Shown piece by piece: positions 19,757 to 36,986 of a stretch of DNA of 64,000 nt. The stretch is taken from contig NZ_ASVU01000002.1 of NCBI RefSeq assembly GCF_000407365.1, positions 62,001 through 126,000 of the forward strand, read 5' to 3'. How positions within the stretch are numbered: position 1 is the stretch's first letter; the number at the start of each line of letters is the position of its first letter. The notes beneath the pieces are model-generated. The model was not told where the DNA came from. It saw only the letters and a program-made list of their open reading frames with translations, and did not search any database. Position numbers and translations under genes: made by a program. Source of the DNA: Enterococcus asini ATCC 700915 (GTDB lineage Bacteria; Bacillota; Bacilli; Lactobacillales; Enterococcaceae).

Positions 19757-20025
19757 TTGGCAAATTACGGATTCTTTGCTATAATTTGTCCAACTTGATA
19801 CTAAACGTTGAACAAGAGAGTACCTTGGTACCAGACATTTGTAGCGAGTCCGAGTTGGTGTGAGTCGGACAGTGTCACCACGGGGAAGCGCACTTGGGAG
19901 TTTCTAGCATAGACGGCGGTCGACCGTTATCGACAAGGTGGTCTGGTGTTTGCCAGATAACAAGAGTGGTACCGCGGGAATTTCTCGTCTCTAGTGTCTT
20001 TGGACAGTAGAGGCGTTTTTGTTTG
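19757..20025 (+). ncRNA. T-box riboswitch controlling argS
   Basis: TTGGCA and TATAAT with a 17-base spacer start the transcript. The leader contains the AGAGAGTACC opening of stem I, extended stems, and the T-box sequence AGAGTGGTACCGCGG near 19963-19977, followed by the terminator hairpin CGTCTCTA/TAGAGGCG with a T-run. Uncharged tRNA-Arg would pair with the T-box and let transcription continue into argS. A CGC triplet near 19898 is a candidate specifier codon, but I could not fold stem I fully. Confidence 0.88.
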
Positions 20026-20090
20026 CCCAAAAATCAAGCCCCTTGTATGGTGGAAGCAAGTCAACCGGTAATTTTAAAGGAGGAAATCAG

Positions 20091-21782
20091 ATGAACAACA
20101 AAGAAATCGTAGCAAAAGAACTATTTGAAGTAGTCAAAGATGATTTGACCTTGGAACAAGTGCAAAACTTATTGGAAAATCCGAAATCGGCGGATCATGG
20201 AGACGTGGCTTTCCCAGCATTCTCCTTAGCGAAAGTCTACCGCAAAGCGCCTCAACAAATTGCAGCAGAGCTTGCTACTAAGATCAACCCTGAGGCTTTT
20301 GAAAAAATCGAAGTGGTAGGACCCTACTTGAACTTCTTTATGAGTAAAGGCGCTATTAGCCAAAAAGTCTTGCACCAAATCGTCAAAGAACAAGCAGCTT
20401 ACGGGAATGCGACAATTGGGGCGGGTCAGACGGTGCCAATCGATATGTCTTCTCCCAATATCGCGAAGCCAATTTCCATGGGACATTTGCGTTCCACGGT
20501 TATTGGGAATTCCATCGGCTTTATCATGGAAAAAATCGGCTATCAACCTGTACGGATTAATCACCTAGGGGACTGGGGTACTCAGTTTGGGAAATTGATC
20601 GTAGCCTACAAAAAATGGGGCTCAGAAGCAGCGGTTAAAGCGGAACCGATTAAAGAATTACTGCGTCTTTATGTAGACTTCCACGAAAAAGCGGAAAAAG
20701 AGCCAGCTTTGGAAGATGAAGCTCGGGCGTGGTTCAAAAAATTAGAAGACGGGGATGCGGAAGCTACACAATTGTGGCAATGGTTCCGGGATGAATCCTT
20801 AAAAGAGTTTAACAAGATTTACGGTCTATTGGGTGTTTCCTTTGATTCCATGAATGGGGAAGCTTTCTACAATGATAAGATGGCAGAAGTTGTGACCTTG
20901 TTGGAAGAAAAACATTTGCTAAAAGAAGACCAGGGAGCCGAAATCGTGGACTTGTCGGCCTACGATTTGAACCCGGCCTTGATTCGCAAATCTGACGGGG
21001 CTACTTTGTACATCACGCGGGATTTGGCGGCAGCCTTGTACCGTAAACGGACCTATGACTTTGCTCAGGCTCTTTACGTGGTGGGCAATGAACAAACCAA
21101 TCACTTCAAACAATTGAAAGCCGTCTTGAAAGAAATGGGCTTTGATTGGGCAGAAGACATTCACCATATTCCATTTGGTTTGATTACGAAAGATGGCAAG
21201 AAATTATCTACTCGGAAAGGCAAAATCATTCTGCTAGAAGAAGTTTTGTTGGAAGCTACAGCTTTGGCGAAAGCGCAAATTGCTGAAAAGAACCCAACTT
21301 TGGAAAACCAAGACCAAGTGGCTCAAGAAGTCGGGGTCGGCGCCGTGATTTTCCACGACTTGAAGAATGATCGTTTGAATAACTTCGACTTTGATTTAGA
21401 AGAAGTGGTTCGTTTTGAAGGGGAAACAGGGCCTTACGTGCAATACACCCATGCTCGGGCAATGAGTATTTTGGCAAAAGCTGACTTTACGCCAGATGAA
21501 ACAGCGGATTACACTTTGGCGGATGAAGAAAGCTGGGAAGTCATCAAACTCTTGCAAAAATATCCAGAAACGGTCTTGCAAGCAGCAGAGAAGTTTGAAC
21601 CTTCCGTAATTGCTAAACACGGGATTAAATTGGCACAAGCCTTTAACAAATATTATGCTAATGTGAAAATCCTAACCGACGACGCGGAAAAAGCGGCTCG
21701 GCTAGCATTGGTTCACGGAGTTACCGTTGTCTTAAAAGAAGACCTACGTCTTTTGGGATTGCAAGCACCAGATAAAATGTAA
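20091..21782 (+). CDS. argS: Arginyl-tRNA synthetase
   Basis: Charges tRNA-Arg. The 563-residue class I synthetase has the HIGH-like [17 protein letters not shown] motif, the N-terminal Add-1 domain, and the anticodon-binding DALR domain at the end. AAAGGAGGAAA fixes the start 24 codons inside the longest open frame, downstream of the T-box terminator. Its place directly after arcA-arcB, with T-box control, couples arginine supply and arginine breakdown genes. Confidence 0.97.
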
Positions 21783-22113: not shown

Positions 22114-22584
22114 CTAGCCGATGATGTGTCCTTTGAAGTACTCTTCTAGTTTTTCGGCATCTTCATTGGTACGGCAAATGGTAATCACGGTGTCAAAGCC
22201 AGCTAGAGTAGTGACTTTTTCTGGCAAGTTGACTTCATCCATCACCGCAGACAACAACTGAGCATTGTCAGGTAAGGTAGTAATGATGGTTAAAAACTGG
22301 ACTCGGTCGACTTTTGTTACGACTTCTTCAATCATACGGACCAAGCGCAGTTCTTCTTCTTTGCTGTCTTGTTCCAAATCATGGTCATGGAATAACTCAA
22401 AGCGAATCTGACCATCTTGGTCTTGGACTTTGACGATTTTTAAATCACGAATATCCCGGGAAATCGTGGCTTGTGTCGCACTGCCACCTCGTCCTTCAAT
22501 TTTTTTTAGTAATTCCTCTTGGGTTCGGACGGTTTCATTGCTTACGATTTGTTTGATAATTGCATGTCGTTCAGCTTTGCGCAT
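22114..22584 (-). CDS. argR: Arginine repressor ArgR
   Basis: A 156-residue ArgR/AhrC protein with an N-terminal winged helix (MRKAERHAIIKQIVSNE ... ATQATISRDIRDL) and a C-terminal arginine-sensing hexamerisation domain (GFDTVITICRTNEDAEKL). It controls arginine synthesis and catabolism genes; likely targets here are arcA/arcB and its own promoter, whose region contains repeated TATAT/TGAAT half-sites near 22597-22617. Confidence 0.94.
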   Translation of the reverse strand: MRKAERHAIIKQIVSNETVRTQEELLKKIEGRGGSATQATISRDIRDLKIVKVQDQDGQIRFELFHDHDLEQDSKEEELRLVRMIEEVVTKVDRVQFLTIITTLPDNAQLLSAVMDEVNLPEKVTTLAGFDTVITICRTNEDAEKLEEYFKGHIIG

Positions 22585-22724
22585 AGGAGTGCTCCTTCGT
22601 ATATATATTCACATTCATCATAGCAAAAAATCGTAAAAACGCAATGGAAAACTTGAAGTGAGCCGTTTTCCCACCATTTAACAGAAAAAATGCTAGAATG
22701 AATATACGAAAAGGAGGAATTCCC

Positions 22725-22955
22725 ATGTTAAAAGAACAAGAACAATTCTATCAATTTTTGCTTGCACAAACGAAACCAGCTCATCAAGAAGAGGTCAAGG
22801 CTTTATTAGTAGATGCTTTCGCCAATCTGGATACAGGTAATTTCACGAAAGCGGATCTGCAAGCTTTTGAAGAAAAAATGACGCCTTTATTGGATCCTTC
22901 TTCGGTGGAATTAGTGAAAGAAGTCTTTCAAAAGTTTGGCGGAAACTTGAAATAA
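22725..22955 (+). CDS. Hypothetical protein, 76 residues
   Basis: A small, highly helical, acidic protein with no recognised domain or membrane segment. AAAGGAGGAATTCCC gives a strong ribosome site before the ATG and TAGAAT serves as a -10 box. It is divergent from argR, and the ATATACG sequence in the gap could bind ArgR. Probably real. Confidence 0.65.
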   Translation: MLKEQEQFYQFLLAQTKPAHQEEVKALLVDAFANLDTGNFTKADLQAFEEKMTPLLDPSSVELVKEVFQKFGGNLK

Positions 22956-22991
22956 CAGTACCTGAGACAAGTAGGAAGAAAGAAAAACTAG

Positions 22992-23020
22992 TTGCAATTT
23001 CAGAAAGTCTAGCGTATACT
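22992..23020 (+). promoter_or_regulatory. Native rpsB promoter, now separated from rpsB
   Basis: TTGCAA and TATACT are 17 bases apart. It lies directly before the left attachment repeat, which carries the original rpsB ribosome site and start. The inserted element has moved rpsB 12.9 kb away, so this promoter now reads into the left end of the element. Confidence 0.8.
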
Positions 23021-23027
23021 ATCTGAG

Positions 23028-23116
23028 GTGTGAGACAAAAATCACACAAATCCACATCTTGCCTGATTTAAGAAGCGGTGCTGATTCGTCAGTTCTTCTT
23101 AGAGTGAAAGGACAAG
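23028..23116 (+). promoter_or_regulatory. Native rpsB leader RNA, probable S2 autoregulatory structure
   Basis: Two hairpins are visible. The first pairs GTGTGA with TCACAC. The second (23070-23100) has outer helix AAGAAG/CTTCTT, an internal loop CGGTG opposite TT, and inner helix CTGA/TCAG capped by TTCG. The same internal loop recurs in the element's right-end leader with different helices, which argues that it is a real, conserved RNA element. Ribosomal protein S2 commonly represses its own mRNA; binding here is inferred. Confidence 0.65.
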
Positions 23117-23168
23117 AGAGGGAAAAAACCAAATTGGAGGAAACACAAAATGGCAGTAATCTCTATGA
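23117..23168 (+). repeat. attL: 52-bp direct repeat, left copy
   Basis: A perfect 52-bp copy of the sequence at 36036-36087. It covers the rpsB ribosome site (TTGGAGGAAAC), the ATG and the first six codons. The bases on both sides differ between copies, so the boundaries are exact. It is far longer than a transposase target duplication and is typical of tyrosine-integrase core homology. Confidence 0.93.
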
Positions 23169-23233
23169 GGACGCCAGTAGCTTTCTGTTCCTTCAGTGGC
23201 GGTACAGCAACCTTTGAAAGTATAATTCAGTGA
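23150..23233 (+). CDS. Chimeric 27-codon ORF beginning with the first rpsB codons
   Basis: The ATG and ribosome site of rpsB are kept in attL, so translation from the native promoter starts MAVISM as in S2 and then runs into element sequence (RTPVAFCSFSGG ...) to a TGA. The ribosome site is a full strength one that normally serves a ribosomal protein, so this peptide should be made. It ends 47 bases before the hairpin that precedes the integrase. It may be a leader peptide or a by-product of the insertion. Confidence 0.5.
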   Translation: MAVISMRTPVAFCSFSGGTATFESIIQ

Positions 23234-23279
23234 AGAACTGTTGAAATGCAGTAGTTCACACTTACTCATGCAACGTTTT

Positions 23280-23328
23280 AACCACTTGTTCTGTTATGGC
23301 TATATATAACAGGATAGGTGGTTTTTTT
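23280..23328 (+). terminator. Terminator-like hairpin overlapping the integrase ribosome site
   Basis: AACCAC (23280-23285) pairs with GTGGTT (23318-23323) and CTGTTA (23291-23296) with TAACAG (23307-23312), followed by seven Ts that end at the integrase ATG. The ribosome site AGGTGG (23316-23321) lies in the 3' arm. The hairpin could stop transcription arriving from the rpsB-type promoter and also hide the ribosome site in any read-through RNA. Confidence 0.65.
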
Positions 23329-24300
23329 ATGCGCAGTTATAGTGATATACCAGAAGAATTTGAAGTTTCAATGTCATGGCCTTCTGCAATTAAGGAGCTT
23401 CTGCTGTTTAAAAAGGCAGAAGGCTACACTGAGGGAACTCTGAAAGGATATAAGAGTTCTATGAAGCTATTCAGTGAGTATTGCGTGGCAAAAGGCTACA
23501 TGAGTCCCGCAAATGTGCCTAAAAGGGCCGTCAGAGAGTTTCAAGCAGATATGAATGAAAGTCATGCAGTAGGGTACTGTAATGCCCACCTGAGCAGAAT
23601 AAGGGCCTTTTACGGCTTCTTGTGTGATGAAGGGGACTTGCCAGAGTATGCTGACCCTACACGCAGGCTAAAAATGGCAGAAGTACTGAAGAAAAAGCTG
23701 ATTATCTTCAATGATGAAGAAGTCTTGCAGTTTATTGAAGCTGCAGGTAATCAGAAAAACAAGTTCTTTGCTGCAAGGGATAAACTGTTGATCATGATGA
23801 TGGCAGACGCTGGCTTGCGTGTGCGTGAGATGGTTTCATTGCAGGATAAAGAAGTTACAGATGAATACATTTTTGTGAAAAAGGGCAAGGGTAACAAGCA
23901 ACGCATGGTTTACTGTTCTCCTGCAGTTGCCAAGGAAGTTATACGCTATAAAAGAGTGCGTAACGCCTACTTTGATTCTAAGAACATTCCTAAAAATGGT
24001 ATGCTGTTCCGCAACAGAGACGGGGGCTTTCTGAAAAATGATGGTGTGCAGAAAATGCTAAAGAAACTGGCAACAGTGGTAGACGTTAGGGCAGATGTCA
24101 GAGTTAGTCCTCACACTTTCAGGCATTACTTTGCGCAGAGTCAACTGAAAAATGGATGTGATATTTTGACTCTGAGCAGGTTGCTTGGACACAGTAACAT
24201 TAATACTACTCAAATTTATTTAGAGGGCCTTGCTGATGAAGAACTTGTGCAGTCTGCAATCAGCACCAGCCCCCTGATGAACTTACGTAATAGGCAGTAA
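23329..24300 (+). CDS. int: Tyrosine recombinase (integrase) of the element
   Basis: A 323-residue site-specific recombinase with an N-terminal SAM-like core-binding domain (about residues 15-110) and a C-terminal catalytic domain. Catalytic residues are visible as R in DAGLRVREMVS, K in KGKGNKQRM, HxxR in SPHTFRHYFAQ, H in LLGHSNINTTQ and the tyrosine in QIYLEG. AGGTGG eight bases upstream sets the ATG rather than an ATG eleven codons earlier inside the hairpin. It should recombine the 52-bp sites at rpsB. No separate excisionase is recognised. Confidence 0.93.
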   Translation: MRSYSDIPEEFEVSMSWPSAIKELLLFKKAEGYTEGTLKGYKSSMKLFSEYCVAKGYMSPANVPKRAVREFQADMNESHAVGYCNAHLSRIRAFYGFLCDEGDLPEYADPTRRLKMAEVLKKKLIIFNDEEVLQFIEAAGNQKNKFFAARDKLLIMMMADAGLRVREMVSLQDKEVTDEYIFVKKGKGNKQRMVYCSPAVAKEVIRYKRVRNAYFDSKNIPKNGMLFRNRDGGFLKNDGVQKMLKKLATVVDVRADVRVSPHTFRHYFAQSQLKNGCDILTLSRLLGHSNINTTQIYLEGLADEELVQSAISTSPLMNLRNRQ

Positions 24301-24316
24301 CAACTGCATACACAAC

Positions 24317-24359
24317 AGCAGCACTTGCAGGGCATTCCCCTGTAGGTGCTGCTTTTTTT
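24317..24359 (+). terminator. Terminator after the integrase
   Basis: AGCAGCAC/GTGCTGCT and the inner CAGGG/CCCTG form a stem followed by seven Ts. Confidence 0.85.
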
Positions 24360-24519
24360 ATTGCCTTGAAACTCCTGTACTTTTGATACTGCTGTTTCTA
24401 CTTCATTTTCTGCCTATCTGACTGTACGCCAGAGAGTTCTCCTGTTTTCTGGTGTATTTACCCGCAGTAAGTGGTCAGGCTGTTTTCACTGCTAACTGAC
24501 TGTAGCTGACAGGGAATAA

Positions 24520-24798
24520 ATGGAAGATATACAGGAAAAGACTCTGGCTACAGATGCACAGGGGGAACAGCTAGTAAGTGGACGGGAACTGCATGAGTTT
24601 CTGGAAGTAGGGACAGCATATAAGGACTGGTTCCCACGCATGGTCGCATACGGTTTTGATGAAGGAAAAGACTTTAGCTCATTTTTGAGCAGAAGTACTG
24701 GAGGCAGACCTTCAGTTGACCACGCAATGAAGTTAGACATGGCAAAAGAAATCTCCATGATCCAGCGCACGGCTAAAGGCAAGCAGGCACGTCACTGA
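24520..24798 (+). CDS. AntA/AntB antirepressor-type domain, truncated
   Basis: A 92-residue protein that matches the AntA/AntB domain: LVSGRELHEFLEVGTAYKDW, GFDEGKDF, and DHAMKLDMAKEISMIQRTAKGKQAR. In full-length phage antirepressors this last block continues as YFIE plus a long C-terminal domain; here TGA follows immediately after ARH. It may work as a minimal domain or be a remnant. Phage antirepressors inactivate CI-type repressors; a repressor is present at the other end of the element. Confidence 0.7.
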   Translation: MEDIQEKTLATDAQGEQLVSGRELHEFLEVGTAYKDWFPRMVAYGFDEGKDFSSFLSRSTGGRPSVDHAMKLDMAKEISMIQRTAKGKQARH

Positions 24799-25232
24799 AA
24801 CTTCTCTGCTGAAACTGTCCACTTTTGCAAAAATTTCCTGAATAAGACATTGTGGGCAAGTTTTTTTAATTAAAGAGAGCTTAAATTTCTAAAAAATTCT
24901 GCCATTATGTCCACTTTGCTTTTTCTTTTGTTGGATATATGAGTGTGCGTAGCGTTGGCGGGGCGCAACATTTTCTAATATCTTTTTTCTTTAAATCAAC
25001 AGCCATTACAGCATTAACTGCAGTATGTACAGTATCTCTGTTTATCTAACAGTAATACTTGATGATTTTATATTTTGTTGGGCATTGCGTCAGCAATGCA
25101 GGGAGATGAACGCAGTGAATTTCCCTAGTAGGTTTTTCCAACTTAACACTACACTAACTATACATACTTTAATACTTTAATAAACAGTAATAACAGTATA
25201 TACAGTAATACTGCATTAACAGAAAGGACAGG
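24799..25232. other. AT-rich gene-free region with short repeats; possible replication origin
   Basis: No protein gene is supported. A hairpin GCATTGC/GCAATGC lies at 25082-25099. Just before the next gene are TACTTTAA twice in tandem and ACAGTA three times at 8-9 base steps (25185, 25194, 25202). AT-rich iteron-like repeats ahead of a winged-helix protein suggest a replication origin or operator region. Confidence 0.35.
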
Positions 25233-25574
25233 ATGAAAATGAGTGAGCTGATGATCTGCAATAATACTCTTGCAAAAGGAACTATATCCAAGGTGGGAGG
25301 GCCACGCAATTTTGCAGTCCTTCTTGTAATACTGGAAAGCATTGGAGTGGGTGAGAGCTTTTGTAAGCTGACCATTGATGAGATAGCTTCCCGCTGTGGA
25401 ATCAGTAGAGATTCTGTAATGGCAGCGGTGAAGGAGCTGACTTCTAAACCTATTGCTGTTGGTGAGCAGCCCCTGCTGCATAAGAGAGTGTTACCAGCAG
25501 AGGGCGGCCGCAGGAAGAACCTGTATTACCCCAACTATGCAATGTTTAAAGGTGAGGAGTTTGACTTGTACTGA
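25233..25574 (+). CDS. Winged-helix protein, replication-initiator or HTH_36-like
   Basis: A 113-residue protein with a compact helix-turn-helix. FAVLLVILESIGVG is a first helix, LTIDEIASRCGISRDSVMAAVKELTS the DNA-recognition part, followed by a wing with HKRVLPAEGGRRKNLYYPNY. The pattern is that of the HTH_36/replication-initiator N-terminal winged helix. AAAGGACAGG precedes two in-frame ATGs two codons apart. The repeat-rich DNA just upstream is a natural binding target. No helicase or primase partner is seen. Confidence 0.6.
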   Translation: MKMSELMICNNTLAKGTISKVGGPRNFAVLLVILESIGVGESFCKLTIDEIASRCGISRDSVMAAVKELTSKPIAVGEQPLLHKRVLPAEGGRRKNLYYPNYAMFKGEEFDLY

Positions 25575-25764
25575 TGGAAGCAGTTCACAATGCAATATAA
25601 GCTCTAAAATGCCCTATGACATAGGAGAAAACAGAAGTCTAACTTTAATCTAAGGTATTTACACCTGATTATAGGAGCAGTCATTTTTCCTACTAACTGA
25701 CTGAGAAAAATAGGCAATAGTGAACAGAAAGCACTAGCAAGGAACCTGGACACTTCATGCTGTT

Positions 25765-26076
25765 CTACAGTAGTTTCCTGATCTTCCTTATTGGTGGCAG
25801 TTCATCATAGGCTTTCCTGATAGACTTCTTGCCGTCAATTACTTCTGCGTATTTCTCTGGGGCTTCACGTTTAACCCGCCTCAACCTGTCCACCTGCACC
25901 CTGCTTGTCCTTGCAATATCAGCAATCTTTTCAGATGTCCTTACTGGCTTTGTAGACTTTTTCTCCATGGAAGCAGAGTCTACTTTTCCAGTGAAGCGGT
26001 TGCCGTGAAACGCTGCTTGTCGTGCCTTTGCTTCCTTGGTCAGAGTCCCAAGCAGTTCCTCACTCTTCAGAACCAC
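25765..26076 (-). pseudogene. ParB-like protein remnant, N-terminal part missing
   Basis: About 103 codons, opposite in direction to its neighbours. VRTSEKIADIARTSRVQVDRL followed by KREAPEKYAEVIDGKKSIRKAYDEL resembles the helix-turn-helix and linker of ParB-like plasmid or phage proteins. The frame continues upstream as QRIDVV before a stop, so the ParB nuclease-like N-terminal domain has been lost. Only a GTG near the break could start it. It is most likely a decayed fragment. Confidence 0.5.
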
Positions 26077-26420
26077 GTCAATGCGTTGGGCTGCTGTTTA
26101 TCTACAGTCACACAGGGCACTTACCAGCTTGTAACTGTAAGCAGGGTAAATAACTGCATGAAACTGTTGCCTCTGTTTTTCCCTTATGACATAGGCAGAA
26201 AATGAAGCAGAACAAGCAGTAACAGAATTACAGGAGGTTCAGAGCTGACTGTGGATGATGCTGGGGACTCTGCAAGGGCTGGGATTATTAAGAAAGATTA
26301 AAGAAAAATAAAAAAATGCTATTGAGTGTAACATTATATGCCAGTTAAACCCCTACTTAATAGGGAAAAATAAACTAAAAGAAATAGGTATAAATGGGAC
26401 ATAGTAAAGGAGGCTTGCAG
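26077..26420. other. Gene-free region with short palindromic repeats
   Basis: No supported gene. It contains copies of the CCCTTATGACATAGG-type repeat (26181-26203) and a CCCTA/TAGGG hairpin near 26350-26366, and the word TACAGTCACACAGGG (26102-26116) which recurs at 33471-33485. AAAGGAGG at its right end serves the next gene. Confidence 0.35.
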
Positions 26421-26696
26421 ATGGCAAAGAAAAAAGTACAGATACCAGCAGAAGTAATTGCAATGCGGAAACTTATGGAAAACAGCATTAAAACTTGCAA
26501 TACAACCAGCAAGAGCATGGATCAGCTTTGTTACCAGTTTAATGTGTTGAAAGCTGGCTTTGGCTCTAATGTAGTTACTCTCACTGATTACACAGAAGCG
26601 GTAGGCATTAAATACGCCACTTTTGCTTACAATATTGCTGCATATAATAAGCGCCAGCAGGCAGCTCTTGGAGCATTGGCAGGTGAAACTAAATGA
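26421..26696 (+). CDS. Unknown small protein, first of a coupled gene run
   Basis: A 91-residue soluble protein, MAKKKVQIPAEVIAMRKL at the N-terminus, mostly helical, with no recognised domain. AAAGGAGG is eight bases before the ATG. It overlaps the next gene by ATGA. The run of genes from here to 29402 is tightly packed and translationally coupled, which supports that each is expressed. Confidence 0.6.
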   Translation: MAKKKVQIPAEVIAMRKLMENSIKTCNTTSKSMDQLCYQFNVLKAGFGSNVVTLTDYTEAVGIKYATFAYNIAAYNKRQQAALGALAGETK

Positions 26697-27046
26697 CGTT
26701 ATCAGCGCAGGTAAAGAAATATCTGTTTGACGGCAAAGGCACGCCAGAACAACAGAAGGCTACAGCAATGCGCCTTGCAAAGTTAGCACCTGTTGAGTAT
26801 ACCAATGCGGTTATCACAGGAGAAAAAGGCGTGACCATTGGAGCAGAGTTACTGACTGCAGAAGACCTTGTGAAAGCATTTGAAGAAGAAATTCAGCTAT
26901 CCAAAGCAGTTCTATTTGAGCTACAACAGCAGAACTACTTCAACAAGATTGTGGCAAAAGAATTTATTGGAGAGCAACAGAAGCTGTATAGAGACTGTAT
27001 TAAACAGTTGCAGGCAGAGGAGGCAGACAATGCAGCGACCACATGA
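26693..27046 (+). CDS. Unknown protein, 117 residues
   Basis: Acidic and helical with a predicted coiled segment in the second half (VKAFEEEIQLSKAVLFELQQQ). No recognised family. It overlaps the gene before by ATGA and the gene after by 17 bases, a packing typical of phage gene blocks. Confidence 0.55.
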   Translation: MTLSAQVKKYLFDGKGTPEQQKATAMRLAKLAPVEYTNAVITGEKGVTIGAELLTAEDLVKAFEEEIQLSKAVLFELQQQNYFNKIVAKEFIGEQQKLYRDCIKQLQAEEADNAATT

Positions 27047-27527
27047 ATATACAAGGAGAACTGAAGGCATTAAAACTGCAACAGATTGGCATGAAGTGTC
27101 AGAGTTTGACTTCACGGCTTATGCTGTTGAAGATTGGCGCAAGTGTAATGAAGATTTCTCGCAATTTTTAGTAGATGGCTTGCTACGTTTACCGCCTGAC
27201 GTTATGCCAGATAATGCGGAAAGAGTGGCATTAGCAGAATACTTCACAGAATGTGCCTTTGCCCACTTTGGCCGACATCTTGATAAAAGAAACCTCTATT
27301 TTTTGAGTAATCTTTGTCTACTTGATTTTATCAATATGCCTAAAAGGAATAAGACAATGAATGAAAAAGACGGTTTTCTTACTCCACGGCAGCTGTATGA
27401 ACGTAGCATGAGAGAGCGCAGTTTATCAGATGATACACTGGACTTCTATTTTACAAAGCGCCTGTTTCCTGACTTGCTACCACAACAGCGGAACACGCAG
27501 CCTATCAATATAAACAGTAGAAATTAA
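27030..27527 (+). CDS. Unknown protein, 165 residues
   Basis: Starts at ATG within the end of the previous gene, set by GCAGAGGAGGC. The sequence contains several tryptophan and aromatic residues (TDWHEVSEFDFTAYAVEDW) and no membrane segment. One of its few TCG codons is at position 27157, rare for this element. No family recognised. Confidence 0.55.
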   Translation: MQRPHEYTRRTEGIKTATDWHEVSEFDFTAYAVEDWRKCNEDFSQFLVDGLLRLPPDVMPDNAERVALAEYFTECAFAHFGRHLDKRNLYFLSNLCLLDFINMPKRNKTMNEKDGFLTPRQLYERSMRERSLSDDTLDFYFTKRLFPDLLPQQRNTQPININSRN

Positions 27528-27543
27528 AGGAGAATGAAAGAAT

Positions 27544-28026
27544 ATGAGCAGTACTACAGATAAAATGACAGCATATTTTGAAGAACGGCAAGCAGCACAG
27601 AAAGCAGAGCGGGAAAAGCATGAAGCTTTATTGCAAGATGTGAAGGAATATCCGCTTCAGTCTGTTTTTGATTTTGTAAAGGTCAAAAATGGAGGAACTG
27701 AAGGAGTAGCCCCAGACGCCCAGAAGTTTTACGCAAAAGCAACGCAAGCAGATATGGAAGGTTATCTTGATGCAGCTGAAGCAGAAAACTTGCGTATTAT
27801 CAAGCTGACAGAGGATGAACGCTTCATTCATAATAGGGCAGCCATTAGTTATCAGGATGCAACCAGACAACAGGAGTTAGTTGAAGCTGCACGCAACCAG
27901 CTGGCAAACTTCCGCCAAAAAGTGCAAGTTACACTGTTTGACGGTACGCCTGTATCAGAAGTAGAGAAGCCTGCTACTGGTGGCGTTGGCGTGAAAGTTC
28001 CTGTTACCTTTGAGGGGGCTGAATAA
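27544..28026 (+). CDS. Unknown protein, 160 residues, helical
   Basis: The N-terminal third is strongly charged and helical (YFEERQAAQKAEREKHEALL); the C-terminal part is beta-rich with GGVGVKVPVTFEG. AAAGGAG lies about eleven bases before the ATG. No recognised domain; helical scaffold-like character is only a description, not an assignment. Confidence 0.55.
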   Translation: MSSTTDKMTAYFEERQAAQKAEREKHEALLQDVKEYPLQSVFDFVKVKNGGTEGVAPDAQKFYAKATQADMEGYLDAAEAENLRIIKLTEDERFIHNRAAISYQDATRQQELVEAARNQLANFRQKVQVTLFDGTPVSEVEKPATGGVGVKVPVTFEGAE

Positions 28027-28027
28027 T

Positions 28028-28711
28028 ATGGGCTTATTTGATTTCTTCAGTCAGAAGCAGGCAGAAGCAGAAAAGCTGACTGATCCAGAGCGCTTAAAGT
28101 TAGACACTGAGACTTCAACCAGAGTGAAAAAACGCCTCACGTCTCTTGAGGGAACTGTGAAGGAAATGAAGGCGCATGAAGCCAAGTTAAAGCAAGAACT
28201 GCAACAAGCTGAAGCCATCAAGTATGGCAAGGAAGAAAAACCAGATTACACTGGCAAAGGCTTTGAGGCCTTTCTTTCTACTGTTACAGCCTACTCCAAA
28301 GGTAAGGCAGAAGCTAAGCCTCTTGAGCAAGTGCGCACAGAGATGGCAGAGTTTGAGCGCTACAAGGGGCAGTTCCTAACTGAAAAATTACGGGAGATTG
28401 AAGCAGACTTACACAAGCTGAAAAGCCAGCAGACTGCTAAATTGCGTGAGATTGAGTCTGCTTTGGAAACTGCCGACAATACAGCAGAGATTGATGAAAT
28501 TTATAAAGTTATTGTGGCAGACTACCAGAGTTTAAATGTACGCACTGGCGCTATTGCAGCGTACTGCCCCCGCAAGTGGTATAGCACAGCTTATGAACGC
28601 ATTGAGCGTGAGGGACTGGCTGGCAGAGATGCACGGCAACGCAAGCAAGGTAAGATTGATGCACAGTACGCTGCTAACTATATGGCAGCCCACAGTGGTG
28701 GAAAGCAATGA
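28028..28711 (+). CDS. Unknown coiled-coil protein, 227 residues
   Basis: Opens MGLFDFFSQKQ and is dominated by coiled-coil segments (about residues 30-65 and 105-155, rich in E, K, L and Q), then a short basic region with RKWYSTAYERIEREGLAGRDAR. GAGGGGG precedes the ATG, which lies one base after the previous stop. It overlaps the terminase-like gene by ATGA. No family is recognised. Confidence 0.6.
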   Translation: MGLFDFFSQKQAEAEKLTDPERLKLDTETSTRVKKRLTSLEGTVKEMKAHEAKLKQELQQAEAIKYGKEEKPDYTGKGFEAFLSTVTAYSKGKAEAKPLEQVRTEMAEFERYKGQFLTEKLREIEADLHKLKSQQTAKLREIESALETADNTAEIDEIYKVIVADYQSLNVRTGAIAAYCPRKWYSTAYERIEREGLAGRDARQRKQGKIDAQYAANYMAAHSGGKQ

Positions 28712-29199
28712 CCCTGCAAAAGTTGACCAACAGCAATAAGCTAACGCCACAGCAAGAGCAGTTCATTGAGCTGTATTGCGACAGTGAGAACAAGATGACA
28801 CAGCAAGAGATTGCAAATGAGTTAGGCGTTTCAAGAAAGACTGTCTCACGTTGGAAGAATGAGCCTGGCCCTGTGCGTATGGAGATTGAAAAGAAAGAAA
28901 AACTGCGTGCGCTTGGGCTTCTAAGTCTTGCCAATAATGCAATGGAGGACATCTTGCAGAATGGTAGCGACACTGCACGGGTAAAAGCAGCAGAGTACGC
29001 CTTACGCATGAATGGACTCTTGCAGAATGGAGCTTCAGAAGAGCTTACCAAAGAAGTGAAGCAAAAAATGACTGTAGAGGAAGCGTTGCAAAAGTATGGC
29101 ATGGGAGGCCCTGCTGTTAAAGAAGCGGAAAAAGTTGACTTCCCGCAGCTTGACCAGCCACAGGGGCCACTTGATGCAGAGCATCTCTGGTTTAAATGA
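28708..29199 (+). CDS. terS: Small terminase subunit-like DNA-binding protein
   Basis: A 163-residue protein whose N-terminus LTPQQEQFIELYCDSENKMT followed by QQEIANELGVSRKTVSRWKN matches the DNA-binding domain of phBC6A51-type small terminase subunits. These select the packaging site and recruit the large subunit. There is no large terminase in the element. Phage satellites of the PICI type often carry only a small subunit and redirect a helper phage's packaging; this gene would fit that role but the helper is unknown. Confidence 0.68.
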   Translation: MTLQKLTNSNKLTPQQEQFIELYCDSENKMTQQEIANELGVSRKTVSRWKNEPGPVRMEIEKKEKLRALGLLSLANNAMEDILQNGSDTARVKAAEYALRMNGLLQNGASEELTKEVKQKMTVEEALQKYGMGGPAVKEAEKVDFPQLDQPQGPLDAEHLWFK

Positions 29200-29402
29200 C
29201 CGCTAAAGCAGGGCGCTGCATTGGCTGGCTGCTTGGCACACTGATTATTCTAGTTCCTGTGCTGTTGCTCTTGCTGGTTGCTGTCCTAGCTTTCAAGCTA
29301 ATTGCAGCAACGTTAGGCATTACAGCATTATCTTTGGTGATTGTATTCATCTTTATCATGTGGTTACTGGTTAAAGCAGGCGCAATAATTCAGAAGTCTT
29401 AG
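29196..29402 (+). CDS. Small membrane protein with two helices
   Basis: A 68-residue hydrophobic protein with two membrane segments (about residues 9-33 and 38-62) and short charged ends. It overlaps the terminase-like gene by ATGA. Size and topology resemble phage holins, but position next to a terminase gene is not the usual lysis context and no endolysin is present, so holin is only one option. Confidence 0.55.
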   Translation: MTAKAGRCIGWLLGTLIILVPVLLLLLVAVLAFKLIAATLGITALSLVIVFIFIMWLLVKAGAIIQKS

Positions 29403-29974
29403 CAGAAAAATAATCTGGTGGATGCTGTCAGCTGAAGCCAGAAAAAAATCTAAAGAAGGAGGCCCTCTGGCGGATAAGGCCTGTCCACGCTGACGGAAAA
29501 CATTAGTGGACGCTGTGACCCTTTTTTAGTTATGCACTTACAGACGCCAAGCCAACTGGCGGGGCATCATGGTTTGCGTTAGGAAACTGTTCTAATTGTT
29601 CTTTCAGTAGATGCTGTGTGTGCTGCTTCCCTTTCTGGTTGGTGGGAGGTAGCGCAGAGTCTTTCATTGCAGATTCATTACCGCACACATGAAAGGTTGT
29701 GCGCTGCCTATAGCAGCAAAAAGAGTAGCACGTCATCAATGTACGGCTGTTTTCTCACTTACTTAGTGCAAAGTGAGAGGCAGCACAGAGCGTAGCAGTA
29801 ATTAACTGTTGCTTTCTGTGGTGCCTGACTTAATGCAGGTATCAATGCCATATAATTTCCTTTCCTTAATTGACAGTGTAAACAAAAAATGACAGCAGAA
29901 ATTGCCTCACGTCCCAGCTTAATGCTGTAAGGCGTGGGGCTTTTTTTGTTGCAGAAAATGGGAGGTGAACAGAA
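29403..29974. other. Gene-free region between terminase-like and tail genes
   Basis: No supported gene. A hairpin GTCCAC/GTGGAC with a T-run lies near 29480-29527 and could end the 26421-29402 run; a second terminator is at 29904-29947. In a normal phage the head genes would lie here, so this is where a deletion may have joined two modules. Confidence 0.4.
29904..29947 (+). terminator. Terminator ahead of the tail genes
   Basis: GCCTCACG pairs with CGTGGGGC (one G-T pair) and is followed by seven Ts. Confidence 0.75.
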
Positions 29975-30286
29975 TTGCTTTTTTACAAGGATAAACCAGT
30001 GGAACTGCAGTTTCCGTTAAAGAGTCTGGTAGCAAGTCAGGAAGAACAGCTGAAACTGCCAAGCTTGCTTGAGCCTGAAAAGCTACGCAAGCGCCATGCC
30101 TTCCCGTGGTTATATGTAGGGCTGAAAGCAGAGTTTCCGCAGATCACGTTGCAAGAAGTGAAGCGTGATTTCAGAAAGTATAGCAAGGATGAACTGCTAG
30201 AGGCTGTGTACAGCAGCATGGCAGTGGATAGAAACAGCAAGGACAGTCTGGAAAGGCTGTCTTTTTATATGGAAGAGGTGAAGTAG
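29975..30286 (+). CDS. Tail assembly chaperone-like protein
   Basis: A 103-residue charged helical protein (MLFYKDKPVELQFPLKSL at the start) that begins at TTG with GGGAGGTGA seven bases upstream and ends directly before the tape measure gene. Small proteins in this position in siphophages are tail assembly chaperones that coat the tape measure. The sequence itself gives only weak support; the position is the main argument. Confidence 0.45.
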   Translation: MLFYKDKPVELQFPLKSLVASQEEQLKLPSLLEPEKLRKRHAFPWLYVGLKAEFPQITLQEVKRDFRKYSKDELLEAVYSSMAVDRNSKDSLERLSFYMEEVK

Positions 30287-31522
30287 ATGGCACTTGGAAA
30301 AATAAGTTTTCAGATTGATGTAGACACAAAGCAATTAAGCTCTAATCTAAAGCAAGCTACCAGTTCCTTCAAGGCTGTTGCAGATACTGCTGAAGCTGCA
30401 GGAGGCAAGGTTGGTAAGTCTGTAAGTCCATTAAAAGGCATGAGTAGTGCTGTAGGCGGCTTTATTTCAAAAGTAGGGCAGTTTGCTGTAGCTGGCGTGG
30501 CTGTAAAAGCTGCAAGCGCAGCATTTCAAATGCTGTCAGATAATGTGCAGGAGGCCCTGTCTGCTTCTGATAGTCTGGACAAGTTTCAGCAAACAATGCA
30601 GTTTGCAGGCATTGACAAAGGAGCTATTTCTGAAGCTAGTAAGGCAGTGAAGAAATATGCAGATGATACTGTTTATGACTTATCAACTGTAGCTAACACT
30701 ACAGCACAGCTGGCTAGTAATGGCGTTAAAGACTTCACAGGACTTACACAGGCAGCAGGGAACTTGAATGCTGTAGCTGGCGGTAATGCTGATACCTTCA
30801 AATCTGTTGCCATGGTATTAACGCAAACAGCAGGCGCAGGCAAGTTGACCACAGAAAACTGGAATCAACTGTCAGATGCAATTCCGGGGGCAGCAGGGCC
30901 ATTGCAGAAAGCCTTGCAGGATGCAGGCGCCTACACTGGCAACTTCAGGGACGCAATGGCGGAGGGGCAGATTACTGCTGATGAATTTAACAGCGCATTG
31001 ATGGACTTGGGCATGAGTGACGTTGCAAAAGAAGCTGCAACTTCTACCAGTACATTTGAAGGTGCTTTTGGATCACTGGAAGCAACAGTGGTGAATGGCC
31101 TGCAGTCCATGATTGACAGCATAGGCAAAGGCAATCTTGTGGGGTTGATCAATGGCTTTACCTCTGCAGTGCAGACTGGTTTCCAGTGGGTAGGTCAGGC
31201 AATTCAAACTGTTATGCCATACGTGCAAAGTTTTTTCACAGGTCTCACTGGGTTTCTTGGGCAAGCAGCAGAGGGACTGAGCGGCTTTCTGCCTGCAATT
31301 TCATCTGTATTTCAAGGAGTTATTGATGTAGCATTGCCAATTCTTTCTAGTATTGTGGAAGGCGTGAAGCAGTATATTGGCTTCCTTGTGGAGTATTGGA
31401 CAGGTATTTTCAGCGGTGACAACTCTGTATGGAAAACAGCTTTACCCGCATCTTTCAGTCTATTCTTGAAGTGGCTGTGCCTATCCTGCAAGATGCCATT
31501 AGCTTCATTCAGGGTATTGTAG
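30287..31522 (+). CDS. Tail tape measure protein, N-terminal frame
   Basis: The 411-codon frame has the typical tape-measure start (ISFQIDVDTKQLSSNLKQAT) and the conserved block around TTENWNQLSDAIPGAAGPLQ found in many siphophage tape measures. After about codon 381 (SGDNSVWK) the frame ends in unrelated residues, while the -1 frame continues in the same style. The break is at GGAAAACA near 31431. Joined, the two frames give about 764 residues, a plausible tail length ruler. Confidence 0.75.
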   Translation: MALGKISFQIDVDTKQLSSNLKQATSSFKAVADTAEAAGGKVGKSVSPLKGMSSAVGGFISKVGQFAVAGVAVKAASAAFQMLSDNVQEALSASDSLDKFQQTMQFAGIDKGAISEASKAVKKYADDTVYDLSTVANTTAQLASNGVKDFTGLTQAAGNLNAVAGGNADTFKSVAMVLTQTAGAGKLTTENWNQLSDAIPGAAGPLQKALQDAGAYTGNFRDAMAEGQITADEFNSALMDLGMSDVAKEAATSTSTFEGAFGSLEATVVNGLQSMIDSIGKGNLVGLINGFTSAVQTGFQWVGQAIQTVMPYVQSFFTGLTGFLGQAAEGLSGFLPAISSVFQGVIDVALPILSSIVEGVKQYIGFLVEYWTGIFSGDNSVWKTALPASFSLFLKWLCLSCKMPLASFRVL

Positions 31523-32580
31523 GGCAGCTTACAACTTTCTGGCAGGAGAATGGGCAGCAGATTATTGCAGCTGTCCAGAACGCTTTCAGCATGGTTGCTT
31601 CTATCATCAACTTCATTATGCCTGCAGTTGCTTTAGTGATCCAGTCTGTTTGGGAAAACATTAAAGGAATCATTCAGGGAGCGCTGGACATCATTTTGGG
31701 GCTGGTAAAAGTATTCACTGGCATCTTCACAGGGGACTTCAGCACCTTCTGGGCTGGCATTAAGCAAATGTTTTCTGGTGCGCTGAACTTCCTGTATAAC
31801 CTGTGGTCAGTAATTGCCATGGGCAAGATCCTTGGCGGTATCAAGTCCTTTGTTACTGCAGGCTTCAGCAGTATAAAAGGTTTTGCCAGCAATGTGATGA
31901 ACGCCTTCAAGGGAATGCTAACGGGAGCTAGTGGCAGCTGGAATGCGCTAAAATCTGCTATTTCTGGCGCTATCAATGGCGCTAAAAGCATTGCGTCTGG
32001 TGCAGTGAACGCCATTAAGTCTACTGTTACGTCTGTGTTTAATGGCCTGAAGTCAGCTGTAACGGGGACATGGAACGGCATCAAGTCTGCCATTACTAAC
32101 CCGATTGAAGCTGCAAAGAATGTTGTTTCTGGCATTGTGAACAAGATCAAAGGGCTGTTTAACTTCAAGTTGAAGTTTCCGCCTATTGAAATACCTAAGA
32201 TTCCTCTGCCGTACTTCAAAATTAGTGGCAGCTTTAACCCGCTAAAAGGGCAGATACCTAAGCTAGATATAGGCTGGCACGCAACAGGTGGTATTTTCAC
32301 AGGGCCATCTGTGATTGGCGTTGGTGAAGCAGGAGATGAAGCAGTAGTTCCTCTGTCTAATAAGTCACGCATGGCGCCTTTTGCAAAGGCCGTTGCAGAC
32401 TTCATGCAAGATGGACAGAAGCAAGAGTCTACTAGCAGAAGAACTGCACAGCCTGTTAGCGTTGAAAGTCATATCTACTTGAATGAACGTGAGATAGTGC
32501 GGGCAATCACTCCTGGCGTCACAAAGCGTCAGACAGTGGATAAAGTAAATGATAATAGACGCAATGGACTGCGCAAGTAG
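31429..32580 (+). CDS. Tail tape measure protein, C-terminal frame
   Basis: Continues the tape measure in the -1 frame. It holds hydrophobic helices, repeats of the pattern NGxKSAxxG (about residues 165-220), and the usual tape-measure end HATGGIFTGPSVIGVGEAGD followed by EAVVPLSNKS. There is no ribosome site at its first ATG, so it should be read as part of the upstream gene through a frameshift, real, mutational, or a sequencing slip in the A-run. Confidence 0.7.
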   Translation: MENSFTRIFQSILEVAVPILQDAISFIQGIVGQLTTFWQENGQQIIAAVQNAFSMVASIINFIMPAVALVIQSVWENIKGIIQGALDIILGLVKVFTGIFTGDFSTFWAGIKQMFSGALNFLYNLWSVIAMGKILGGIKSFVTAGFSSIKGFASNVMNAFKGMLTGASGSWNALKSAISGAINGAKSIASGAVNAIKSTVTSVFNGLKSAVTGTWNGIKSAITNPIEAAKNVVSGIVNKIKGLFNFKLKFPPIEIPKIPLPYFKISGSFNPLKGQIPKLDIGWHATGGIFTGPSVIGVGEAGDEAVVPLSNKSRMAPFAKAVADFMQDGQKQESTSRRTAQPVSVESHIYLNEREIVRAITPGVTKRQTVDKVNDNRRNGLRK

Positions 32581-33804
32581 CCCCAACTGAATAACCGCAC
32601 ACGGCACAGGTCTTACAGCTAATCACTGTGAGGCCTGTGTTATTCTTTTATGTGCAGCTAGAACTTTTGCCAGAGTCTACACACAGTAGTTCACAGTGTC
32701 TCATTATAGAACTGTGGGACATTGAACTAATGCAGCCCAACAGACTTTATCTGAGAAAGTCATTCAGGAAGTCAGAAGTGGGGTAACAGTTGGTACAGTA
32801 GACTTTCTGTAGGGTGCTGATAGACAGTAGGGAGTACTGCTGAATACTGCAAATATTAAGCAACTACTCTCCTTGCGTGACCCCCTTCAGAATTAGCAGG
32901 CACCTGTTAGCTACTGTTATCCATGCAGAGGGTAGTCAGAGTGTGGTGTTGTTCTTTCTGTTATTTATCTGTAGTTAACGGCTAATGAACTCTATGCAGA
33001 AGTGTGCTGATAATATTCAGTATATAACAGACTACAACTGTAATCATGCTGATATAAAAGAATATACACAGAAGCACCTGTAATCAACAGTAGCTGAACA
33101 GCTTGTAATTACTGTTGCATCAGCGTTTATAAGTGTTTGCTGAAACTTATTTAAAGTTAGTTAACATAATTATCTTTTATCTGTAGCAAATCTTTATGCA
33201 ATTAAATGCAAAAGTAATCATCTGTCGCCAAAAGCAACTCTGTTATTCACTGCAAAGGCTTTTGCTGACTCTTACTGTTCATTCTGTTGTTGAAAGAGTG
33301 ATACCGTGGCATGGGGAGGCGGGGGCTTTCTGGCTGGCCCCCAAAGTGTTAGTTGCTGTACACACCAATTTTGAAGTTCAGCCTTTAGCCTAACAGTCTC
33401 TTACAGTCAGCCAGAGTCCCTCCTAGAAGTCTATCTCTGTTTATCCATGCTGTTCATTCTTAGCTGTCAGTTACAGTCACACAGGGGAGAAAGTAGAGCA
33501 GTACTGCATACAGGTATAACAGTACCTAACAGAAGTCTAGCCAGTTTTTCCTCTATGCTATAGGGCATTTTTGCTGCTAGAATTGATGCTGAGGCCTGAC
33601 AGTAGTTAAAGCCTTGCTGGAAATAAACAGGATGCCAGAAATAAATACATAGTAAATTTCAGAGTCAGGCATTGCATTTGCCAGAGTGGTTAGCAGTAGT
33701 GCTGTACCTCCTGTAATGGTGCACACAGGCGCATTTTAAGCGCATTTCAGACAGCAAGGAAGGTAAGTGACTGTTTGGAAGCTGTAGAGAGCCACAGATA
33801 CACA
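32581..33804. other. 1.2 kb gene-poor region rich in ACAG/CTGT words
   Basis: No protein gene is convincing here on either strand. The sequence is packed with ACAG, CTGT, CAGTA and TACTG words, repeats of GCCAGAGT, and a hairpin repeat at 33544-33572. It lies where the remaining tail genes of a siphophage would be expected. Base style is that of the element, not the host. Confidence 0.5.
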
Positions 33805-33856
33805 AAGAAAGCCAGAGTCTCCAACTGTTAGATGACAGAAGGGAACTCTGGCTTAT
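33805..33856 (-). terminator. Terminator of the repressor gene
   Basis: AAGCCAGAGT and ACTCTGGCTT form a 10-bp perfect stem. Read leftward it is followed by TTCTTTG. It lies 34 bases after the repressor stop. Confidence 0.65.
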
Positions 33857-33889
33857 TGTTATGCTGTAGGAATGAGGGTAGCGCTGTTG

Positions 33890-34186
33890 TTACTGGTTGT
33901 CTTGCAACTGTTGACTGATGAACTCCTGCAATGCTTGTAGCTCTGCTGGGGATAGATCAGCAACATAACTCTGCAGGGCTTCAGTGGTAACAGGTTTGCC
34001 CAGCAAGTAATCCACTGAAACACTGAAAAGGTCTGCTAGTTGTAGCAATTTGTCAGTAGAGGGCTGCATTTCACCAGCTTCATATTTTCTTACTGTTCTC
34101 TCTGAAACATTCAAAGTCAAAGCAAGCTCCTTCTGAGTAATACCACGCTTGCTTCTGAGTTTTTTCAGTGTATCTGCAAAAAACAT
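33890..34186 (-). CDS. Cro/CI-type repressor
   Basis: A 98-residue protein with an N-terminal XRE helix-turn-helix (LRSKRGITQKELALTLNVSE followed by RTVRKYEAGEMQPS) and a short C-terminal helix with no protease-type domain. It is the only gene besides the ParB-like remnant transcribed leftward. GAGGTGG lies before the start. Two near-identical operator candidates sit directly upstream, so it probably represses the rightward promoter there and itself. Confidence 0.85.
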   Translation of the reverse strand: MFFADTLKKLRSKRGITQKELALTLNVSERTVRKYEAGEMQPSTDKLLQLADLFSVSVDYLLGKPVTTEALQSYVADLSPAELQALQEFISQQLQDNQ

Positions 34187-34197
34187 CTTTCCACCTC

Positions 34198-34257
34198 TTG
34201 ACAGGACTAAATAGTTCCTCTATACTTTGTGTTGTTTGACAGGACTAAATAATTCCT
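34198..34257 (+). promoter_or_regulatory. Twin operators and rightward promoter upstream of the repressor
   Basis: TTGACAGGACTAAATAGTTCCT (copy 1 at 34198-34219) recurs with one change at 34236-34257, spaced 38 bases; each holds an imperfect AGGA/TCCT palindrome. In copy 1 the TTGACA is a consensus -35 box with TATACT 17 bases later at 34221, so operator binding would block that promoter, which reads towards the 393-residue gene. A hairpin GCCAGAG/CTCTGGC follows at 34276-34295. Confidence 0.7.
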
Positions 34258-34395
34258 GTTTGTTATCAAACAAAAGCCAGAGTTGCAGCTCTGGCAATCA
34301 AGCAGAAGTCAATAGTTGAACTGTCTACTTGTAGTCAATACAAGAATTATTATAGCAGTTCCCCTTTTGACTGACAATCACTAGGAGGGAAACAC

Positions 34396-35577: not shown

Positions 35578-35606
35578 TAGAAGAATAAACCAGTGAAGAT
35601 ACAAAG

Positions 35607-35656
35607 AAAGCCAGAGTTTATTGCTGTTAAGTCAGTAGTGACGCTGGCTTTTATTA
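35607..35656 (+). terminator. Terminator after the 393-residue gene
   Basis: AAAGCCAG pairs with CTGGCTTT, followed by TATTA. It isolates the outward promoter from upstream transcription. Confidence 0.6.
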
Positions 35657-35877
35657 CATAAATGAATTACTGCCATCCTGACTTTTTGCCAGAGTGAAAA
35701 TAATGAAATGCTGTAATACCAGTACAAATAACACTTAAAAATGCAACATCTTACAGAGATTACTGCCAGAATACAGTATTTTGCATCAAAAACAGGCGGT
35801 AATTGAAGAATTTTCTTGCTAAATACTGCCAAAATTTCTATAATTGCTGTAGCCCACAGAACAAGCGGTAAAAATTA

Positions 35878-35906
35878 TTGCAAAGTAAGCGGGGCTGCTG
35901 TATAAT
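35878..35906 (+). promoter_or_regulatory. Outward promoter at the right end, now driving rpsB
   Basis: TTGCAA and TATAAT with a 17-base spacer, using the same -35 hexamer and spacing as the displaced native rpsB promoter at 22992-23020. It lies 162 bases before the rpsB ATG and is the only good promoter between the element's last terminator and rpsB. Confidence 0.82.
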
Positions 35907-35912
35907 ACTTTG

Positions 35913-36035
35913 AGTGTGCTGATTGATGCAGTCAGAAATGGCGGTATAACAGCATTACACTACAAAAACCACATTTTACTGGTACTTGCTGGGCGGTGCT
36001 GCAACCTGCAGTTCCCAACAGGGATAATCAGTAGA
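35913..36035 (+). promoter_or_regulatory. Element-borne rpsB-like leader RNA
   Basis: At 35987-36020 an outer helix TGCTGGG/CCCAACA (one mismatch), an internal loop CGGTG opposite TT and an inner helix CTGCA/TGCAG with loop ACC reproduce the architecture of the native leader at 23070-23100. The internal loop is identical while both helices differ by compensating changes. The upstream CCACAT box and ACAAAAACCACA also align with the native leader. It looks like a diverged rpsB leader carried by the element, able to bind S2. Confidence 0.7.
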
Positions 36036-36087
36036 AGAGGGAAAAAACCAAATTGGAGGAAACACAAAATGGCAGTAATCTCTATGA
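36036..36087 (+). repeat. attR: 52-bp direct repeat, right copy
   Basis: Exact copy of 23117-23168. It supplies the ribosome site, ATG and first codons of the functional rpsB, so integration leaves the S2 protein sequence intact. Confidence 0.93.
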
Positions 36088-36869: not shown

Positions 36870-36889
36870 TATTCGTAATGGATGAGGAG

Positions 36890-36942
36890 CTGTTTCAAAG
36901 GCTGGGCGCCAAAAGCCGCACTCCCTTTGAAGCAGTTTTTTT
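36890..36942 (+). terminator. Terminator-like hairpin between rpsB and tsf
   Basis: CTGTTTCAAAGG pairs with CCTTTGAAGCAG (one G-T pair) and is followed by seven Ts. Since tsf has no obvious promoter after it, it probably acts as a partial terminator that sets the S2 to EF-Ts ratio. Confidence 0.75.
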
Positions 36943-36986
36943 GTGAAAAAATGCCCACGGGCTTATTGAACAAGGAGGAACTTGGA

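Follow-up and report, generated by a model that had tools for sequence, protein, structure and literature searches.

A phage-like element in the 5' end of rpsB in Enterococcus asini and the rpsB-type leader at its right end

Phage-like chromosomal islands range in size from 10 to 15 kb. The element described here, of about 12.9 kb, lies in the 2.57-Mb genome of Enterococcus asini ATCC 700915, where it separates the leader of rpsB, the gene for ribosomal protein S2, from the rpsB coding sequence. Coordinates refer to the stretch of 64,000 nucleotides that was analysed (the window; contig NZ_ASVU01000002.1, positions 62,001 to 126,000, forward strand). Among the described systems closest to it are the SpyCI islands of streptococci, integrase-bearing phage-like islands at the 5' end of mutL which, like the element in rpsB, cut the gene from its promoter, and whose excision restores the native order (accessible parts of PMC3430984 and PMC4129442). 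The same parts of these two papers describe one SpyCI strain in which a cryptic promoter inside a decayed integrase gene rescues mutL. Upstream of the SpyCI integrase gene (int) lie two divergent genes, for a repressor and an antirepressor, and an island at the ribosomal gene rpsD uses the 3' end of that gene, unlike the others covered in the accessible part of the same review (PMC4129442). EfCIV583 of Enterococcus faecalis, an integrase-bearing phage-like island of about 12 kb in the same genus, is likened to the present element by description (PMC3675006, as far as accessible).

An original prediction, made by a model from the letters of this DNA, held that integrase expression may be tied to S2 control both when the element is integrated and when it is excised as a circle. 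The explanation preferred here, with a probability of about 0.72, is that a promoter and leader carried by the element keep the rpsB-tsf operon regulated and that a hairpin largely insulates int.

The insertion and the two leaders

Exact direct repeats of 52 bp, attL (23117-23168, forward strand) and attR (36036-36087, forward strand), bracket the element, which occupies 23169-36035 (forward strand). Each copy contains the ribosome-binding site of rpsB together with its first six codons, and only from the right copy do rpsB (36069-36869, forward strand, open throughout; PF00318, E=4.4e-101) and then tsf continue. The open reading frame (ORF) that holds tsf spans 36882-37868 on the forward strand (PF00889, E=5.7e-75), and tsf itself likely starts at about 36987, judging from the AGGAGG which precedes that position. 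In the uninterrupted locus L022, argR, an 85-residue ORF, the leader and rpsB all lie within 1.5 kb, and each of the 28 native loci displayed has its leader running straight into rpsB; the element has thus been inserted in the 5' end of this gene. The earlier observation that an element lies between the rpsB leader and the rpsB coding sequence, with the native leader facing the integrase, is confirmed.

The native leader, now displaced from rpsB, is located at 23024-23122 (forward strand), and a second leader of the S2 type, borne by the element, is located at 35940-36041 (forward strand), where it directly precedes rpsB (36069) in the integrated state. Both were scored with a held-out covariance model, R1, for which native leaders were collected from the rpsB loci of related genomes and cropped by pattern-picked -10 hexamers. 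R1 was built from 44 aligned leaders out of 67 distinct native ones. The leaders of the host and of Enterococcus songbeiensis were excluded on purpose, as were both element leaders, and a further 21 were omitted, part of them near-duplicates and part divergent (e.g. L069, L077, L087, L095, L098 and L099), which biases the model toward leaders of the Enterococcus type. The consensus structure of the 44 leaders has 19 pairs, 15 of them with changes on both sides. With E-values that are rough, as for such models generally, the native leader scored 85.4 bits (E=5e-17) and the element-borne leader 67.4 bits (E=5.4e-13), all 19 of its 19 pairs being standard. These are the only two significant matches in the whole genome, the third having E=0.57. 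Native rpsB leaders share CCACAU and GGUGCU...AGU elements set in a three-helix structure, which the element leader also possesses. Across 395 genomes of the order, a strongly covarying leader match (E<=1e-4) was found in 177, and two copies were shown by the E. asini genome only; this survey used stricter filters, with which weak second copies can be lost, and the E. songbeiensis genome (G004) is not among the matches listed.

Judged from its sequence, the element leader is no recent copy of the host leader. The S2 domain of the element leader is 61% identical to that of the host and 70% identical to the best native one, and host and nearest relative share 82%. Between the host and element leaders 9 pairs are the same, 1 is changed on one side, 9 are changed on both sides and none is broken. 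When 19 substitutions were placed at random, all 19 pairs were kept in none of 20,000 trials (mean 8.4, largest 17). Since all 19 pairs are kept at this level of identity, nine of them by two-sided changes, the element leader looks to be under selection as an RNA structure. All 76 cells of a four-row alignment of native and element leaders pair as well, in an alignment that was fitted to the structure and is biased toward it, with two rows nearly the same.

Each leader is preceded by a promoter-like site. The native site, TTGCAA-17-TATACT at 22992-23020 (forward strand, 9/12, sigma-70-like), now faces the integrase, and native leaders of related loci have a -10-like hexamer at the corresponding place. 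At the right end of the element, TTGCAA-17-TATAAT at 35878-35906 (forward strand, 10/12, a consensus match) lies upstream of rpsB in the integrated state and would lie upstream of int in the circle; a second right-end site, TTGCTA-17-TATAAT at 35816-35844 (forward strand, 10/12), is a consensus match only. The positional part of the original prediction therefore stands: the native promoter-like site and leader face an int that reads in the same direction, and by geometry the right-end site and leader would precede int in the circle.

No Rfam 15 family matched the leaders, either across the window or in a scan of 22500-24500 against all of Rfam at E up to 10, and the family t44, tried as the leader family, had no match in this genome. 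The idea that GGUGCUG...UCAGYUC mimics the S2 site on 16S rRNA was dropped, as there were no repeated 16S matches; the pattern occurs twice in the genome, in the native leader and at C1:311011. Based on its position, its conservation and the E. coli case, the Lactobacillales leader may be supposed to bind S2. It is possible that this leader has already been described somewhere in the literature; a Firmicutes rpsB leader was not found in the accessible part of PMC7247131.

The region before the integrase gene and related elements

The tyrosine integrase is encoded at 23329-24300 on the forward strand (PF00589, E=2e-27; phrog_1). Two features upstream of it were missed by the original prediction. 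One is a stub ORF of 27 codons (23150-23233, forward strand; translation MAVISMRTPVAFCSFSGGTATFESIIQ) which runs from the displaced rpsB start and fuses the first six rpsB codons to element sequence, so that in both states the leader feeds the stub first. The other, identified by folding and pattern matching, is a terminator-like hairpin with a T7 run (23280-23328, forward strand), which begins 46 nucleotides past the stub stop. Its 19-bp stem occupies 23280-23323 and the T7 run, at 23322-23328, ends at the int start codon (ATG, 23329). The likely int Shine-Dalgarno sequence, AGGTGG at 23316-23321, sits in the 3' arm of the hairpin, 166 nucleotides downstream of the stub start codon, and an alternative upstream ATG for int (23296) also lies within the hairpin. 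With its stable stem and U-run the structure has the form of an intrinsic terminator. Its predicted energy is -24.9 kcal/mol (z -8.2; 0 of 300 dinucleotide shuffles as low), and the other ORF starts of the window (n=31) range from -3.4 to -16.4 kcal/mol. Across the junction predicted for the circle, the hairpin and the S2 domain of the leader each fold as they do when separate. From attL up to the hairpin, the sequence shows no folding beyond that of its shuffles (z 0.04). As a candidate arm site for the integrase, CAGTAGTTCACA gave 6 matches against 4.4 expected.

No attenuation-type link between leader and hairpin is visible, given that the stub stops 46 nucleotides short of the hairpin and that pairing between hairpin arms and leaders is at the level of shuffles. 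Antiterminator pairing of the arms with both leaders was rejected, as 0.20 to 0.70 of shuffles paired as well. A separate int promoter in 23170-23320, the observation which the original prediction named as able to overturn it, was not found in convincing form in a sigma-70 scan of that interval: a TATAAT at 23221 has a best -35 of only 3/6 at a spacing of 19, and a TATAAC at 23305 has a best -35 of only 2/6.

A sister element occupies the same rpsB position in E. songbeiensis. Its integrase is 52-54% identical to that of the E. asini element, and several other genes are alike at 22-46%. It has a leader at attR preceded by TTGCAT-17-TATACT (found by eye), a stub ORF of 18 codons, and a hairpin before int of -26.9 kcal/mol, a value reached by none of 300 dinucleotide shuffles. 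Its repeats (L003 9730-9858 and, on the reverse strand, L016) are identical copies of 129 bp which span the whole S2 domain, and a TATAAT at L003:9950 lies between leader and int. The sequence of this carried leader suggests gene conversion by, or re-acquisition from, the host copy. The sister integrase gene (L003 10025-11000) is frameshifted near codon 40 at an A/G run, which could be a draft error. The insertion-site pattern was found in 63 of 105 genomes of the family and is doubled only in those of E. asini (G000) and E. songbeiensis, the other 42 being unjudgeable by this pattern. The integrase was found at E<=1e-60 in 2 of 196 relatives' genomes, again these two. Searches for further elements in 551 phage records and 2,688 plasmid records gave only matches below 60% identity; in viral contigs the single protein found none and the pair alignment found one match, at 27%.

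The 395 genomes of the order contain 14 other integrase relatives (33-39% identity, E<=1e-45), and for 11 of these (34-39% identity) loci of about 4 kb were examined, G159, G280 and G358 being left out. In all 11 a hairpin with a U-run directly precedes a start codon, which brings the count of hairpins before int to 13 of the 13 integrase loci examined. In 62-nucleotide windows with dinucleotide shuffles, the 11 loci scored alike ranged from -17.3 to -26.9 kcal/mol with at most 1 of 300 shuffles as low; 9 of the distant loci were scored with dinucleotide shuffles, and L119 and L122 with single-base shuffles in 80-nucleotide windows. L113-L117 are near-identical and do not represent five independent cases. 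No convincing rpsB-type leader was found in the 11 loci of about 4 kb (best 14.1 bits, E=0.3), so that control close to int looks generic. The hairpin accordingly looks to go with the integrase family and not with rpsB, as would a family-wide insulator.

In 10 of the 11 distant relatives int follows the 3' end of a gene whose product ends in YARI(A/S)LGI(R/K). The longer ending WYPAWTTD(R/K)MSRYARI(A/S)LGI(R/K) is seen in the gene preceding the integrase in L112-L119, L121 and L122. This 3' end is doubled on one strand in all 10 such genomes, with one copy adjoining int and the second 8-36 kb away on the same contig in nine genomes and on another contig in G085. A gene's 3' end thus appears to be the integration target of the distant relatives, the host gene being oriented toward int; the doubled 3' end would represent a recurrent 3'-end island site in Lactobacillales.

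Besides int, the E. asini element carries AntA-like, HTH, terminase-small-like, tape-measure and XRE-like genes. The AntA-like gene (24520-24798, forward strand) follows int in the same direction and the XRE-like gene (33890-34186, reverse strand) is at the end far from int. A weak O-like match (E=0.0012) at 25233-25574 raises the question of a replication initiator or primase. The tape-measure homology is divided between two ORFs that overlap in different frames (30287-31522 and 31429-32580), through a frameshift mutation or a programmed shift, and is contained in a single 801-residue ORF in the sister element (L003:16212-18617). A 393-residue ORF at the right end (34396-35577) has no Pfam or PHROG match. 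A tyrosine integrase at one end, attachment repeats and a length of about 12.9 kb are features of a phage-like island. A divergent repressor/antirepressor pair of the SpyCI type was not found upstream of int in the element, which is therefore called phage-like and is not filed as SpyCI or PICI.

The left flank of the insertion consists of argR, for the arginine repressor (22114-22584, reverse strand; PF01316/PF02863), and the 85-residue ORF (22698-22955, forward strand), which lies between argR and the leader and has no Pfam match. By tblastn, argR matches 26 of the 30 rpsB loci L004-L033, plus L003, the attR loci L004 and L016 being two of the four without a match; matches to the 85-residue ORF are limited to L005, L006, L022 and L003. 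Elsewhere in the window, a T-box leader (19799-19995; RF00230, 104.8 bits) lies upstream of a 587-residue ORF (20019-21782).

Explanations for the layout

What the sequence provides is the geometry, the identity of the leaders with their compensatory changes, and the hairpin with its presence in relatives. In the preferred explanation, a phage-like island has inserted within the initial codons of rpsB-tsf, an essential operon, and would part the operon from the native promoter and leader. At its right end the island would supply a substitute promoter and a structurally complete S2-type leader, whereby the insertion could be tolerated and rpsB-tsf could stay transcribed and autoregulated from the leader of the element. 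Transcripts from the native promoter and leader at attL, or from the element leader in the circle, would run through the rpsB stub into the terminator hairpin, which would stop them before int and also hide the int Shine-Dalgarno sequence. The integrase gene would then be largely insulated from a ribosomal promoter in both states, and a low level of expression might come from read-through or from an unrecognised promoter. The 3'-end target of the relatives may be the older state, from which the rpsB pair would have moved to a 5' end. Such a move would create the need for a substitute promoter, and for a substitute leader because rpsB-tsf is autoregulated, as described for E. coli. This explanation supposes promoter activity, S2 binding, termination, excision and an insertion that is neutral for rpsB. 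The substitute leader most likely serves rpsB, keeping rpsB-tsf regulated being the simpler reason for its presence.

Several points weigh against this explanation. Promoter consensus matches are not above those in shuffles (2 against a mean of 3.0, and 3 against a mean of 3.1), so both promoter calls rest on position before a leader. The S2 domain alone folds modestly better than shuffles, with z -2.75 in the element, where 3 of 200 shuffles did as well, and z -1.88 in the native domain (12 of 200). The terminator pattern alone is barely above shuffles (2 sites against 1.2), a U-run that ends at a start codon might terminate weakly, and insulation leaves the route of int expression unexplained. 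The rpsB elements found number just two, and the one in E. songbeiensis carries at attR an S2 domain with the same sequence as the host copy, within the 129-bp repeat; the sister element is consequently no independent example of a divergent leader.

The original prediction offered a different role for the leaders: int mRNA would start from an rpsB-type promoter and leader, and recombination would follow ribosome supply; as weighed here, free S2 would lower int. The geometry and both leaders are real, each leader belongs to the rpsB type, one or the other would stand upstream of int in either state, and 23170-23320 is without a convincing sigma-70 promoter. The step from leader to int is the part that is not supported, since the hairpin, its U-run and the buried Shine-Dalgarno sequence intervene and are common to 11 distant relatives whose loci of about 4 kb show no convincing rpsB-type leader. 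Moreover, int has its own likely Shine-Dalgarno sequence well past the stub start codon, the pairing of leaders with hairpin arms is no better than shuffled, and S2 in E. coli acts on translation of the first gene, which here is the stub and not int. The layout argues for insulation instead of a link from S2 to int, and the proposal is considered improbable. A variant that extends to the circle as well, given slightly less credence still, is that free S2 on the shared leader alters translation of the stub and hence read-through into int, so that integration and excision would follow the balance of S2 and ribosomes. If true, a single RNA switch would serve an essential host operon in one of the two states and would govern recombination in the other.

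Alternatively, the host-like sequence at the right end could be kept as DNA, as arms of the integrase attachment site, its resemblance to an RNA leader being incidental. The sequence does adjoin the attachment repeat, and the E. songbeiensis repeat covers the whole S2 domain, yet 61% identity with 19 pairs kept, nine of them by two-sided changes, points to selection on RNA structure, and a promoter-like site precedes the sequence; this is regarded as very unlikely. Greater weight, though well short of an even chance, is given to transcription of int from an unrecognised promoter that uses another sigma factor or an activator of the element and is located within the hairpin or in the interval from attL to int, which is compatible with the preferred explanation. 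A precedent is the sigma-H-driven int of Staphylococcus aureus prophages (PMC2869324, accessible part), and the TATAAT at 23221 has a counterpart in the sister element at L003:9950; however, neither of these has a -35 better than 3/6, and transcription begun at 23221 would run into the hairpin all the same. It is also conceivable, if rather doubtful, that the element is an immobile, fixed relic and its layout a frozen accident, which would be partly compatible with carriage of a substitute leader and insulation of int. The split tape-measure homology and the frameshifted sister int are in keeping with decay, whereas the int of the window is open over its full length, the attachment repeats are identical and the native leader at attL is undecayed at 85.4 bits.

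Comparison with known systems

The autoregulation of rpsB-tsf by S2 in E. coli likewise works through a structured leader RNA of this operon, and the control acts on translation of the first gene; that leader is described as conserved across gammaproteobacteria (PMC10931766, accessible part). The Rfam family t44 has no match here. If the Lactobacillales leader has the same role, the element would amount to a natural swap experiment on which of its features S2 control needs. The rpsB region also serves as an island site in Enterococcus cecorum, of the same genus, the likeness being one of description; that island lies near rpsB and carries biotin genes, and the sites of such elements are in 3' ends or intergenic (accessible part of PMC10117131, in which no leader is discussed). 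The literature on rpsB with integrases or islands was covered in part, and an earlier description of such an element is possible.

The terminator at the end of Tn916 insulates element genes from an active upstream host promoter, as is proposed here for the hairpin (PMC11658703, accessible part). The Tn916 terminator shields genes for unwinding and replication, whereas the hairpin in the rpsB element abuts int and contains its likely Shine-Dalgarno sequence. The hairpin points to an insulator of the integrase family that is both terminator-like and Shine-Dalgarno-burying, with a 3'-end target in the distant relatives and a 5'-end target here.

The best-described 5'-end islands silence the gene they enter, and the rpsB pair suggests an alternative. 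SpyCI silences mutL when integrated (PMC3430984 and PMC4129442, as far as accessible), whereas the rpsB element has entered a ribosomal gene and carries a promoter-like site and a regulatory RNA leader. An element may thus settle at the 5' end of an operon that is both essential and regulated by bringing along the whole regulatory RNA and not a promoter alone.
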